The notes under the pieces are model-generated. The model was not told the DNA's origin. It ran no database searches and saw nothing but the letters and a program-made list of their open reading frames with translations. A program made the position numbers and the translations under genes. From Rhodoferax sp. (GTDB lineage: Bacteria; Pseudomonadota; Gammaproteobacteria; Burkholderiales; Burkholderiaceae_C), in contig NZ_JAMPYG010000002.1 in the NCBI RefSeq assembly GCF_023700745.1, positions 1 to 64,000 on the forward strand: DNA of 64,000 nt, read 5' to 3'. This document shows positions 3,950 to 64,000 of the stretch, piece by piece (position 1 is the first letter of the stretch; each line of letters starts with the position of its first letter).

Positions 3950-5029
3950 TTGAACGCCCAATTTATTAGTCCTGTCGTCCAGCAACTAGTGCCTTATGTG
4001 CCGGGTGAGCAACCCAAAATAGCCAATCTGGTCAAGCTCAATACCAACGAAAACCCTTACCCCCCGTCACCACGCGTGGTAGCCGCCATCCAGCAGGCAG
4101 CGCAGCATGGCCTGCAGCTTTACCCTGACCCTGATGGCAGCGCATTGCGGCAGGCCATCGCCCGGCATCTTGACCTGACACCCCAACAAGTCTTCTTGGG
4201 CAACGGCTCAGACGAAGTTCTGGCCCATGCTTTTTTTGCCTTTTTCCAGCAGGGCTGCCCGCTGCTGATGCCCGACATCAGCTACAGCTTTTACAAAGTC
4301 TATTGCGGCCTGTACAGCATTGCTGCACGTACTGTGCCGTTACGTGAAAACCTGCACCTGAACGTGGCCGACTATGCCGTGCCCGACCAGACTGTCGCCG
4401 GGGTGGTGATTGCCAACCCCAATGCCCCCACCGGGGTTGGCTTGCCACTGGCCGACATTGAGACATTACTGCAAATGCACCCCAACCGGGTCGTGCTGAT
4501 CGATGAGGCCTACGTTGACTTTGGCGGCCGTAGCGCCGTTGCCCTGATTGACCGCTATCCCAACCTGCTGGTAGTGCATACCCTGTCCAAGTCGCGCTCG
4601 CTCGCCGGTTTGCGCATTGGCTACGCCTGTGGCCAGGCGCACCTGGTTGAAGCCCTGAACCGGGTGAAAAACAGCTTCAACTCGTATCCGCTGGATCGGT
4701 TGGCGCTGGCCGGCGGCGCGGCCGCCTTTGAAGACCAGGCCTATTTTGAGCAAACCTGCCAAGCGGTAATGAGCAGCCGCGAAGGGCTGGTACTGGCGTT
4801 GGAAGACCTGGGCTTTGAGGTGTTGCCTTCACAAACCAATTTTGTCTTTGTACGCCACCCCGATCATGAGGGAGCCGAGCTCGCTGCCGGCTTGCGCACG
4901 CAAGGTGTGTTGGTACGGCATTTCAAACAAGCACGCATTGACCAATACCTGCGCATCAGCGTAGGCACGCCCACGCAATGTGATCAACTGGTCGCAGCCC
5001 TGGCCAAACTGGTCACGGCCAAAGCCTGA
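3950..5029 (+). CDS. hisC: Histidinol-phosphate aminotransferase (TTG start)
   Basis: [61 protein letters not shown]: class I/II aminotransferase of HisC type. Confidence 0.9.
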
Positions 5030-5064
5030 GGCACAGGCTTAAACAGCCGGACATTCGACGAAAT

Positions 5065-5104
5065 GTTGGGGTCAGAGCACGTCGCTTTGCGAGTGGTCTG
5101 ACCC
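5065..5104. repeat. REP-like palindromic element, copy 1 (identical inverted copy at 61310-61349)
   Basis: gttggggtcagagcacgtcgctttgcgagtggtctgaccc; folds gggtcaga-g-cac-g-tcgc-TTT-gcga-gtg-g-tctgaccc. Confidence 0.85.
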
Positions 5105-5110
5105 ACAAAG

Positions 5111-6028
5111 TTAATAGCGCCGTTTCTGTTTGAGTTCGGCGTATAAATCACTGTAGATCTGATAGCGATTCAGGCTGATGCTGTCAGGCTTGTCGTCCGA
5201 ATTCACTGCGGCAATCACACCACAACCAGGTTCATGCAAGTGGCTGCAGTTGTAAAACTTGCAGTGTTTGACATGGGGCTTGAGGTCGGGCATGTAGGCC
5301 GCCAACTGGGCCGGCTCAATGTGGTTCAGGCCAAACTCCTGAAACCCCGGAGAATCAATCAGTGCCGTGGTTTTGTCCGCGTCCACCCAATACCAGGTGG
5401 TGCTGGTGGTAGTGTGTTTGCCGCTGCTCAGGGCCTGTGACAAAACGCCGGTTTGCACCAGGGCACCGGGGACCAGGCAGTTGATCAAGGTGCTTTTTCC
5501 GGCACCCGACGGCCCCAGCACCAGGGTGGTCTTGCCCGTCAGCCGCGAGCTCAAGGCTGAGCGCCCAGCTTCTGCGTTCGCGAGCGAAAGCGGCAACACG
5601 TCGTAACCCATGTGCCGATAAGGTGCCAGCCAGTTCCAGGCACGGGCAAAGGGCTCGGTGAGGTCACTTTTGTTAAGGGCAATGATCGGGGTGATGTGCT
5701 GCTCTTCGGCGGCAATCAGGGCCCGGGACAGTTGGCTGCTGGAAAACTCAGGCTCGGCGGCAATCAGGATCAGCACCTGATCCAGGTTGGCGGCAAACAT
5801 CTTGGTTCGCACATCGTCCTGCCGATAGAACAGGTTGCGGCGCGGCTCTATTTTCTCAATCGTGCCTTCGTCCTGAGACGCCAGCCACAACACCCTGTCA
5901 CCCACTACGCCTTCGCTTTTTTTACCTCGCGAATGGCAAATCAAACGCTCTCCCGCTGCGTTTTCAACCAAAAAATGGCGTCCATAGTTGGCCACGATCA
6001 GGCCTGGCGCGCGTTGAGCGTGAGTCAT
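5111..6028 (-). CDS. rsgA: Ribosome small subunit-dependent GTPase A
   Basis: ALNKSDLTEP, LGPSGAGKSTLINCLVPG, DSPGFQEFGL, C-terminal CKFYNCSHLHEPGCGV zinc motif (circularly permuted GTPase). Confidence 0.95.
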   Translation of the reverse strand: MTHAQRAPGLIVANYGRHFLVENAAGERLICHSRGKKSEGVVGDRVLWLASQDEGTIEKIEPRRNLFYRQDDVRTKMFAANLDQVLILIAAEPEFSSSQLSRALIAAEEQHITPIIALNKSDLTEPFARAWNWLAPYRHMGYDVLPLSLANAEAGRSALSSRLTGKTTLVLGPSGAGKSTLINCLVPGALVQTGVLSQALSSGKHTTTSTTWYWVDADKTTALIDSPGFQEFGLNHIEPAQLAAYMPDLKPHVKHCKFYNCSHLHEPGCGVIAAVNSDDKPDSISLNRYQIYSDLYAELKQKRRY

Positions 6029-25790: not shown

Positions 25791-25867
<77 letters not shown>

Positions 25868-60554: not shown

Positions 60555-61301
60555 ATGTCTGCACGTCTGCCCAACAAAGTTTCCATCATCACCGGCGCCG
60601 CTCAAGGCATCGGTCTGGCCACCGCGCTCAAGTTCGCCAAAGAAGGCGCCATTGTCATCATTTGCGACGTCAAGCAGGCCGGTGTCGACGAGGCCGTAGC
60701 GCAGTGCCGGGCACTGGGTGCCACGGCAGAAGGGTTTGTCATGGACGTGACCCAGCGCGCTATGGTCGATGCTGTGGTGGCGCAGGTCAAAGCCAAATTT
60801 GGCCGCATTGACGTGCTGGTCAACAACGCCGGCATCACCCAGGATGCGCGCCTGCAAAAAATGACTTTGGAGCAATTTGACAAGGTCATCGACGTGAACC
60901 TGCGCGGCGTGTTCCACTGCTCGCAAGCCGTTGCCGACGGCATGGTGGCCCAGGGCAGCGGCGTGATCCTGAACGCCAGCTCGGTGGTTGGCCTGTATGG
61001 CAACTTTGGCCAAACCAACTACGCTGCCACCAAGTTTGGCGTGATCGGTTTCACCAAGACCTGGAGCCGCGAACTCGGCCCCAAGGGCGTGCGCACCAAC
61101 GCGGTCGCACCCGGCTTCATCACCACGCCGATGGTGGCGGCCATGCCTGAAAAAGTGTTGCAGGACCTGGGTGCCAAGGTCGCCTTGCGCCGCCTCGGCA
61201 AGCCCGAGGAAATTGCCAACGTCTACGCCTTTTTGGCCAGCGACGAAGCCAGCTACATCAACGGCGAAGTGATCGAAGTTTCCGGCGGAATTTCCCTCTG
61301 A
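60555..61301 (+). CDS. fabG: 3-oxoacyl-ACP reductase (FabG-like SDR)
   Basis: [53 protein letters not shown]. Confidence 0.88.
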
Positions 61302-61309
61302 CACCTTGC

Positions 61310-61349
61310 GGGTCAGACCACTCGCAAAGCGACGTGCTCTGACCCCAAC
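61310..61349. repeat. REP-like palindromic element, copy 2 (exact reverse complement of 5065-5104)
   Basis: gggtcagaccactcgcaaagcgacgtgctctgaccccaac. Confidence 0.85.
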
Positions 61350-61357
61350 GGATCACC

Positions 61358-64000
61358 CTACCCCAAGCTGCCGCCTGCGCTCAAAGCGACGGCACAGTAC
61401 TTGACTTCCGGAATCAGTCCAAACGGATCGAGCGCCGCATTGGTCAACAGATTGGCGGCCGCCTCGTGGTAGGCGAAGGGCATGAACACGGTGCCACGCG
61501 GCGTGCCGTCGTCCTGGCGCACACGCAACACCACCTGGCCGCGGCGCGAACGCACCGTCAGCACGGCACCAGGCTCCAGACCCAGGGCCTGCAGGTCGGC
61601 ACCACACAGGCTGACCATGGCCACCGGCTCCAACGCGTCAAGCACCTGGCTGCGCCGTGTCATGCTGCCGGTGTGCCAGTGCTCCAACTGGCGCCCGGTG
61701 ATCAGCACGAAGGGGTAGTCGGCATCGGGCCGTTCGTCGGCGTGGATCAGCCTGGCAGGCACCAGATGCACGCGCCCGTCGGGTGTGGCCACCTGGTCCT
61801 GGAACACCGTGGCCTGGCCAGGGTCGCTGGCATCGTGGCAGGGGTAGGTCACGCTTGACTCGCGCTGCAAGCGTTCCCAGGTGATGCCGCCGATGCTGGC
61901 CTGCATGGCCTGGCGCATTTCCTCGTAGACGCTGGCCACACCATGGTAGTCGCCGCGGTAATCCCACTGCAGACCCAGGCCGGCGGCCATCTGCTGAAGA
62001 ATCCAGAGGTCGGCGCGGGCTTCGCCCGGCGGCACGATCGCCTGCTGGCCAAGCTGCACCATGCGGTCGGTGTTGCTCACCGAGCCGGTCTTCTCGGGCC
62101 AGGCGCTGGCCGGCAGCACCACGTCGGCGAGCCAGGCGGTCTCGGTCATGAAGATGTCCTGCACCACCAGATGCTCCAGCGCCGCCAGCGCTGCGCGGGC
62201 GTGGTTCAGGTCGGGGTCGCTCATGGCCGGGTTCTCGCCCATGATGTACATGCCACGCACCTTGTGCGGGTCGTTGTCCGGCGCCTGCGTCTTGTGCATG
62301 ATCTCGACCACGGTGTAGCCCCGCTCGGGATCCAGCGGCTGACCCCAGAAGTGCTCAAACCACGCCTGCGCCGCCGGGTCGTCGACCTGCTGGTAGTTCG
62401 GGTACATCATGGGGATCAGACCGGCGTCTGATGCGCCCTGCACATTGTTCTGGCCGCGCAAGGGATGCAAACCGGACCCGGGCTTGCCGATCTGCCCGGC
62501 CACCGTGGCCAACGCAATCAGGCAGCGCACGTTGTCGGTGCCGTGGATGTGCTGGCTCACGCCCATGCCCCACAGAATCATGGCACCGCGCGCCTGGGCA
62601 TAAGCGCGCGCCACTTCGCGCACGGTGCCGGCATCAATGCCGCAAATCGGCGCCATGGCCTCAGGGCTATAGGGTTTGACGGCTTCGGCCAGCGCGGCGA
62701 AGTTGCTGGCACGCCGGGTCAAAAAGTCCTGATCCGCCAGGCCTTCTTCGATGATGGTGTGGATCAGCGCATTGATCAACGCGACATCCGTGTCGGCGTT
62801 GAATTGCAGCGAGCGCCAGGCATGGCGGCTCAGGTCGGTGCGGCGCGGGTCGGCCAGCACCACACGCGCACCCGCCTTGGCGGCATTCTTGATCCAGGTG
62901 GCGGCCACCGGGTGATTCGCGCTGGGGTTGCAGCCGATCACCAGAATCAATTCCGAATGCGCCACGTCCTTGACCTGGTTCGTCACCGCGCCCGAGCCAA
63001 CGCCTTCCAGCATAGCAGCCACGCTGGAGGCATGGCACAGCCGGGTGCAATGGTCAACATTGTTCGAGCCAAAACCGGTGCGCACCAGCTTCTGAAACAG
63101 GTAAGCCTCTTCGTTGCTGCCCTTGGCCGAGCCGAAGCCGGCCAAGGACTTCGCGCCATGGGTGTCGCGCAGCGCCTTGAGCGGACCAGCCGCCAAGGCC
63201 AGGGCTTCCTCCCAGCTGGCTTCGCGAAACACCGCTGACCAGTCGCTGCTGTCACGCTTGAGTTGCTGCAGACTGGCTGGGTCCTTGGGCACACCGGGCT
63301 TGCGCACCAGTGGCTTGGTCAGGCGCTGCGGGCTGTGCGCGTAGTCAAAACCAAAACGGCCCTTGACGCACAGGCGGCTCTGGTTGGCCGGTCCATCGCG
63401 CCCCTCAACGGCGACGATGGTGTTGCCTTTGACTTTGTAGGTGACGAGGCAGCCAACACCGCAGAAAGGGCAGACCGAGTCGACCTCGCGGTCGACCGTC
63501 TGCGCACCGATGTGCGATTTGGGCATCAACGCGCCAGTTGGGCAGGCTTGCACGCATTCGCCGCAAGCAACGCAGGAGCTCAGGCCCATCGGGTCGTTCA
63601 GATCGAAGCTGATGTGGCTGTGTGCGCCGCGCCGGGCGTAGCCGATGACGTCATTGACCTGGATCTCGCGGCAGGCGCGCACGCAGCGGTTGCACTGGAT
63701 GCAGGCGTCCAGATGCACGGCCATGGCCGGGTGGGACAGGTCTGCCGCAGGCGTCTCGCGCTGCAACGCACGCAATGCCGGGCGCACCTGCACGTCCATG
63801 CGTGCGGCCCAGTCACTGAGTTCGCCATGCGGCTGCGACGCGCCGGCGGCGTTGTGCTTGTAGCCGGTGTCCGGCAGGTCGGCCAGCAGCATCTCCAGCA
63901 CCATCTGCTGGCTTTTGACGGCGCGCGCGCTGCGCGACTGCACCACCATGCCGGCACTCGGGCTGCGACAGCAGCTGGGCGCCAGGCTGCGCTCGCCCTC
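61358..64000 (-). CDS. fdsA: NAD-dependent formate dehydrogenase alpha subunit (5'-truncated by window edge)
   Basis: Open frame reaches the window edge (EGERSLAPSCCRSPSAG then MVVQSRSARAVKSQQ); ferredoxin Cys motifs CIQCNRCVRAC and CVACGECVQAC; CPFCGVGC; NVDHCTRLCHASSVAAM. Confidence 0.93.
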   Translation of the reverse strand, partial: EGERSLAPSCCRSPSAGMVVQSRSARAVKSQQMVLEMLLADLPDTGYKHNAAGASQPHGELSDWAARMDVQVRPALRALQRETPAADLSHPAMAVHLDACIQCNRCVRACREIQVNDVIGYARRGAHSHISFDLNDPMGLSSCVACGECVQACPTGALMPKSHIGAQTVDREVDSVCPFCGVGCLVTYKVKGNTIVAVEGRDGPANQSRLCVKGRFGFDYAHSPQRLTKPLVRKPGVPKDPASLQQLKRDSSDWSAVFREASWEEALALAAGPLKALRDTHGAKSLAGFGSAKGSNEEAYLFQKLVRTGFGSNNVDHCTRLCHASSVAAMLEGVGSGAVTNQVKDVAHSELILVIGCNPSANHPVAATWIKNAAKAGARVVLADPRRTDLSRHAWRSLQFNADTDVALINALIHTIIEEGLADQDFLTRRASNFAALAEAVKPYSPEAMAPICGIDAGTVREVARAYAQARGAMILWGMGVSQHIHGTDNVRCLIALATVAGQIGKPGSGLHPLRGQNNVQGASDAGLIPMMYPNYQQVDDPAAQAWFEHFWGQPLDPERGYTVVEIMHKTQAPDNDPHKVRGMYIMGENPAMSDPDLNHARAALAALEHLVVQDIFMTETAWLADVVLPASAWPEKTGSVSNTDRMVQLGQQAIVPPGEARADLWILQQMAAGLGLQWDYRGDYHGVASVYEEMRQAMQASIGGITWERLQRESSVTYPCHDASDPGQATVFQDQVATPDGRVHLVPARLIHADERPDADYPFVLITGRQLEHWHTGSMTRRSQVLDALEPVAMVSLCGADLQALGLEPGAVLTVRSRRGQVVLRVRQDDGTPRGTVFMPFAYHEAAANLLTNAALDPFGLIPEVKYCAVALSAGGSLG

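Follow-up and report, generated by a model that had tools for sequence, protein, structure and literature searches.

A palindrome family at fixed distances from stop codons in Rhodoferax, with ends resembling the repeats of a chromosomal Y1 transposase gene

The window considered here is a stretch of 64,000 nucleotides from Rhodoferax sp., and it contains two copies of a short palindrome, each located, as the initial annotation had it, in the gap between two convergent genes. The first gap is bounded by hisC (histidinol-phosphate transaminase; 3950..5029, plus strand), which ends 40 bp before the palindrome, and by rsgA (ribosome small subunit-dependent GTPase; 5111..6028, minus strand), the natural stop codon of which (5111-5113, TTA on the plus strand) is 7 bp from the palindrome core and is the same in orthologues without the element. 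The second gap is bounded by fabG (3-oxoacyl-ACP reductase; 60555..61301, plus strand), with its natural stop codon at 61299-61301, 9 bp from the core, and by the gene for the formate dehydrogenase alpha subunit (61358..63949, minus strand), with its stop at 61358-61360, 13 bp from the core. Copy 1 with its flanks occupies 5062..5113 on the plus strand, with a 34-bp core palindrome, GGTCAGAGCACGTCGCTTTGCGAGTGGTCTGACC, at 5070..5103 and an outer stem in which TTGG at 5066-5069 pairs with C5104 and C5106-A5108, leaving A5105 as a bulge. Copy 2 with its flanks occupies 61299..61360 on the minus strand; its core at 61311..61344 is identical to that of copy 1, and the TTGG of its left-end stem, read on the minus strand, is at 61345-61348.

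The identity from which the analysis started, that between positions 5065-5104 on the plus strand and the reverse complement of 61310-61349, holds over all 40 bp with 0 mismatches. The number of such matches expected by chance is 0, as estimated from 100 dinucleotide shuffles, and there is no further copy of the 40-mer with at most three mismatches elsewhere in the 64,000-nt window. The fold proposed for it, with an outer stem of 8 bp, a G.G mismatch, CAC paired with GTG, a bulged G, TCGC paired with GCGA and a TTT loop, is confirmed, and folding calculations give the hairpin −14.4 to −17.8 kcal/mol as DNA (z from −3.7 to −5.0) and −26 to −34 kcal/mol as RNA. No Rfam family matches the palindrome at gathering score; in the window Rfam has a single match, a tRNA gene at 25791-25864 on the plus strand. 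The sharp boundaries ascribed to the repeat belong to the pair and differ from those of the element itself, since conservation among 193 copies extends from about −12 to about +12 around the 34-bp core.

The two copies are indeed members of a dispersed family rather than a lone pair. A search with a 36-mer allowing three mismatches finds 19 places in the 3.2-Mb draft genome and a looser search finds 25, so that the genome has about 25 copies, while the reversed pattern used as control finds 0. With many copies, a length of 20-60 bp, intergenic location and the ability to form a hairpin, the palindrome is REP-like in the broad sense. When 36 congeners were searched, the numbers of copies were 44 in G013, 42 in G003, 24 in G022 and 9 in G032, and with two mismatches allowed another two genomes had one copy each and 30 had none. 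The exact pattern occurs in only 15 of 251 genomes of the family. Matches with a name come from Rhodoferax, Polaromonas, Hydrogenophaga and metagenome assemblies of other Comamonadaceae and Burkholderiales; two matches in Pseudomonas and one in Cellvibrionaceae are without the consensus in their flanks and seem to be due to chance.

The consensus of the element is TAATCAGTTGGGGTCAGAGCAC(R)TCGCTNNGCGAGTGGTCTGACCC(N)CAAGGTTTCA, and alignment of the 193 copies extends it to TYTAATCAGTTGG | GGTCAGAGCAC(R)TCGCTNNGCGAGTGGTCTGACC | CGCAAGGTTTCA; the stem reaches out to TTGG/CC(n)CAA. The outer stem TTGGGGTCAGA/TCTGACCC(n)CAA hardly varies among 137 copies belonging to the 34-bp class, apart from the base bulged at +2, which does vary. 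Of these copies, 132 retain the G.G mismatch, and the base that bulges out after CAC is either G or A. A minority of copies have compensatory changes in the inner TCGC/GCGA stem, from C-G to T-A and from G-C to A-T and C-G. All neighbours within 120 bp of each other, 51 pairs in number, are in direct orientation, with 0 inverted. The spacers in these arrays are 17-26 bp long in all pairs but one and are alike within an array; a CRISPR-like array was considered and rejected, because the spacers are near-identical within an array and are built of element ends. Integron attC sites have the form RYYYAAC...GTTRRRY, and the GTT...CAA polarity of the element is the reverse of this.

The palindrome could also be the Beta-proteobacterial repeat element (BRE) of Bordetella described by Hot et al. 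2011, seen here in another host. BRE has been counted in Rhodoferax ferrireducens (4) and in Polaromonas JS666 (29), and the two kinds of repeat are alike in being intergenic, beta-proteobacterial and often tandem (PMC3110155). The BRE unit is longer, 75-91 bp against about 51-60 bp here, a distinction drawn from the description of BRE rather than from its sequence. Identity of the two is somewhat unlikely, and BRE might be a relative of the element or even an overlapping family. A literature search with the sequence word GGGGTCAGA returned only unrelated papers among the matches listed.

The position of the element relative to gene ends is fixed almost to the base. When open reading frames of at least 70 codons are counted around the 182 copies with enough flanking sequence, some of which are orthologous and hence not independent, 52 copies have a reading frame on the left side that stops precisely 8 bp short of the core, and reading frames on the right side end 7, 8, 9 or 10 bp past the core in 12, 16, 35 and 10 copies, respectively; the background in the same copies, at distances of 13-39 bp, is about 1.3 stops per position. 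The same spacings recur at unrelated loci within this genome alone. The proteins concerned end at the same residue as their orthologues in 258 of about 305 comparisons, and in 187 of these 258 there is no pattern-matched element downstream, a few of them having degenerate copies. From this agreement of C-termini, also where no pattern-matched element is present, follows that the stops near elements are natural ones, and stop codons carried by the element are rejected as the main explanation, since orthologues lacking it stop at the same codon. A stop triplet is present at −11..−9 in 112 of the 182 copies, in 60 of which there is no such gene, and this speaks for a target sequence or for an end borne by the element, and not for the stop codon as such.

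A different account of the same spacing is that selection keeps the hairpin past stop codons, where it would tune translation termination or protect mRNA 3' ends. This would agree with a spacing that is fixed on both sides and symmetric about the hairpin, and with the 24 of 27 orthologous gene clusters in which the element is found on the same side across species; in addition, a study in E. coli reports that ribosomes stall at REPs located at most 15 nt from the stop codon (PMC12306157). By that analogy, effects of the nearby hairpin on rsgA and fabG are possible. Against selection for such a function speak the T-R-A sequence kept at −11..−9 in many copies without a gene, the diversity of the adjoining genes, the absence of the element from most relatives and the three clusters in which its orientation is flipped at the same gap, and it is on balance unlikely to be what keeps the copies in place.

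The flipped clusters include the hisC/rsgA gap itself (G022 compared with this genome, G000), and such changes of orientation within one gap suggest that insertion has occurred there more than once. In G022 this gap (L210) holds a degenerate copy in the orientation opposite to that of the window copy. The corresponding gap of G003 (L212) reads TGA-AACCAAT-TTA, with the 7-base AACCAAT between two stops. These seven bases resemble one end of the element fused to the other, perhaps a footprint of hairpin loss; the gap fits either an empty site or one from which the hairpin has been lost between GG repeats, and no clean empty site was recovered. Target-site duplication gave too weak a signal for a claim, the longest word common to the two flanks being 4.01 against 3.59-3.96 in shuffled pairs. 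Orientation has no lagging-strand bias as judged from GC skew on the draft contigs, where 12 of 24 copies agree with it.

Convergent gaps contain 13 of 24 copies, compared with 52 of 318 gaps overall (p = 6e-5), and with each gap given a weight according to its stops the enrichment has p = 0.008. The expected enrichment in convergent gaps is thus found, but is much weaker when adjacency to stop codons is allowed for, and the spacing to stop codons largely accounts for it. The hairpin had also been proposed to insulate convergent transcripts, and the unweighted enrichment together with the strength of the hairpin as RNA would suit a transcription terminator or insulator between convergent genes. 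No T-tract is present at copy 1, the sole copy scanned, where the search for an intrinsic terminator, i.e., a G+C-rich stem followed by a T run, gave 0 matches in 4900-5250. With about half of the copies outside convergent gaps and the bias so reduced by the weighting, a role as terminator or insulator is very improbable, and the proposal of insulation is not borne out.

The genome has one gene for a Y1 transposase (PF01797), at C14:152521-153225 on the minus strand, about 88 kb beyond the window. Its product of 234 aa has intact NHFH, LWEG and YIDLNP motifs, matches Y1_Tnp as its only Pfam family and the NCBIfam model REP_Tyr_transpos with 84.5 bits at a cut-off of 80, and weakly matches the E. 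coli TnpAREP structure 4er8. Downstream of this RAYT gene is AATTAATTGGAATCTGACCCCAATTAATTTG, which as reverse complement reads AATTAATTGGGGTCAGA, and when this 3' flank is aligned by eye with the left end of the element, AATCAGTTGGGGTCAGA, 15 of 17 bases are the same. The suggestion of an associated RAYT gene is therefore upheld in that there is exactly one, with ends common to the element, but the gene is flanked by GGGGTCAGATTCCAATTAATT repeats and not by the palindrome. These repeats are of GGGGWSAS type, with GGGGTCAG and GGGGACA(T/C) in relatives, and in this genome are present on the right side only; both are kept in G013 and G022, while the left one has been lost here. In Rhodoferax the outer end of the RAYT repeats is common to the elements and the inner hairpin is not. 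A RAYT homologue, as a single-copy gene, was present in 42 of 42 genomes of the family tested, most of which have no elements, so that inside the family one cannot tell from the gene whether a genome has elements. The gene lies upstream of gltB wherever flanks could be parsed among 30 fetched with flanks (the copy in this genome and L289-L318), in most cases with recognisable repeats, and this location is unusually stable for a transposase-like gene. In G020 (L189) and G017 (L199), the RAYT gene is preceded by two TTGGGGTCAGATTC repeats in direct tandem, at a distance of about 27 bp from each other.

Two sets of known systems are relevant for the classification of this gene and its repeats. 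In TIRtrons, a Y1 gene (TIRYT) is flanked by GGGGWSAS terminal repeats (Di Nocera et al. 2013, PMC3733652); related dispersed repeats are moderately abundant, some of them self-complementary and clustered, and such TIRYT-related repeats as well as REPs near gene ends were already known (PMC3733652). The main text of that study does not mention Rhodoferax, Polaromonas or Burkholderia. The Rhodoferax repeats are like those of TIRtrons in having the repeat ends of the transposase gene, and differ from them in that the unit is a compact hairpin, the interior of which is unlike the terminal repeats of the gene, and in that copies form direct-only arrays with fixed spacing to stops. TnpAY1 subclass 2.1, which is group 1 of Bertels, is characterised by NH[YF]H, W[EQ] and YI-LNP motifs, a length of about 238 aa and GGGG[AT][CG]A[CG] repeats, and is frequent in beta-proteobacteria; a survey found no REP-like sequences for the subclass (Quentin et al. 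2018, PMC6006769). The Rhodoferax RAYT has the motifs, the length and the GGGGWSAS repeats of this subclass, and by these sequence features it resembles TIRYT, group-1 RAYT and subclass 2.1 proteins; what sets it apart is a palindrome family with the same ends as the RAYT repeats. A C-terminal helix-turn-helix domain is a further criterion for transposases of this type, and for the Rhodoferax protein Pfam gives Y1_Tnp alone.

The proposal of a REP/RAYT-type family accordingly stands as far as a REP-like family and one RAYT gene are concerned, and a canonical REP/REPIN family of a GTAG-type RAYT, to which size, bulged hairpin, intergenic dispersal and the RAYT gene would also conform, is hardly tenable when the GT[AG]G foot is absent, with GTTG before GGGTCAGA in more than 90% of 193 copies, inverted neighbours number 0 against 51 direct, the RAYT motifs are those of subclass 2.1 and not of the GTAG subclasses, and the palindrome does not flank the gene. 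What the element has in common with the GTAG REPs, REPINs and BIMEs of group 2 and 3 RAYTs is an imperfect, bulged palindrome of 20-40 bp, found between genes and near gene 3' ends and linked to a RAYT; what it does not have is their foot, their inverted pairs, their RAYT subclass and their high number of copies, and its direct-only arrays are the opposite of the REPIN/BIME organisation. The linkage of a hairpin family to subclass 2.1, its direct-only arrays and its base-precise spacing to stops seem to be new.

The palindromes are thus probably a MITE-like or REP-like family of about 51-60 bp, the ends of which are miniature TIRs of the chromosomal TIRYT-type Y1 transposase and which inserts at T-R-A. 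To see how this could work, consider a non-autonomous element that is mobilised in trans by the RAYT. The bulged hairpin would be the means by which the transposase folds the element as a single strand, and insertion would take place on the 3' side of a T-R-A sequence, in most cases YTAA. Among such sites in a genome rich in G+C, stop codons would be the commonest at which insertion is harmless, and copies would therefore pile up past natural stops, where they would often take up all of a convergent gap. An element could then multiply where it has inserted, into head-to-tail arrays, by local re-insertion or slippage. Elements of the IS200/IS605 family have their target on the 5' side of the left end. 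The exact spacing on the left and the looser spacing on the right fit this rule; a left-hand target alone does not explain stop adjacency on the right in copies without a gene on the left.

Group-1 RAYTs are widespread and have long been kept as single genes, and we know of no substrate for them. The element family is a candidate for such a substrate, since it is a small hairpin with ends that match the repeats of the gene itself. Its fixed distance to stops hints at a simple rule that brings selfish DNA to places where it is harmless, and makes the target choice of the RAYT directly testable. Insertion by such a rule may also explain how hairpins that could act on translation termination reach the ends of many genes.

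The correspondence between palindromes and RAYT repeats extends to the order. In other genera the ends of the element are kept and its inner hairpin is replaced. Of 165 genera, 17 have palindromes that end in TGGGGTCAGA...TCTGACC and differ greatly in their interiors. A RAYT gene is commoner in genomes with palindromes (19 of 22) than in non-carriers (13 of 28; p = 0.007). In the 12 bases that follow GGGGTCAGA, palindromes agree with the RAYT repeats of their own genome at 9.9 positions and with those of other genomes at 5.8, and this same-genome match has a permutation p of 5e-5 among eight other genomes of the order, namely the carriers for which the RAYT fetched has repeats in its flanks. 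To exemplify, palindrome and RAYT repeat in G533 have the end GGGGTCAGACCCCTGTGGATAAGT in common. For about half of the carriers, no such repeats accompany the RAYT that was fetched, and several of those belong to the shorter class. Such co-variation of ends from genome to genome can be tested by mixing and matching. It is conceivable, and tentatively proposed, that the GGGGTCAGA-tagged palindromes of Burkholderiales form a REP-like superfamily served by group-1 RAYTs, in which the gltB-side RAYT of the Rhodoferax branch drives integration specific for stop codons.

Two further kinds of palindrome were seen in the course of these searches. In G305 and G230 there is a related family that has the same ends and a longer interior, GCTTTCGGCCACGCTGCGCGTGGATCTCAAGG. 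In another family of bacteria, G429 and G515 have 33 and 19 forward matches, respectively, to long palindromes ending GGGGTCAGACTCC(C)ATT..., and these are a separate abundant family.
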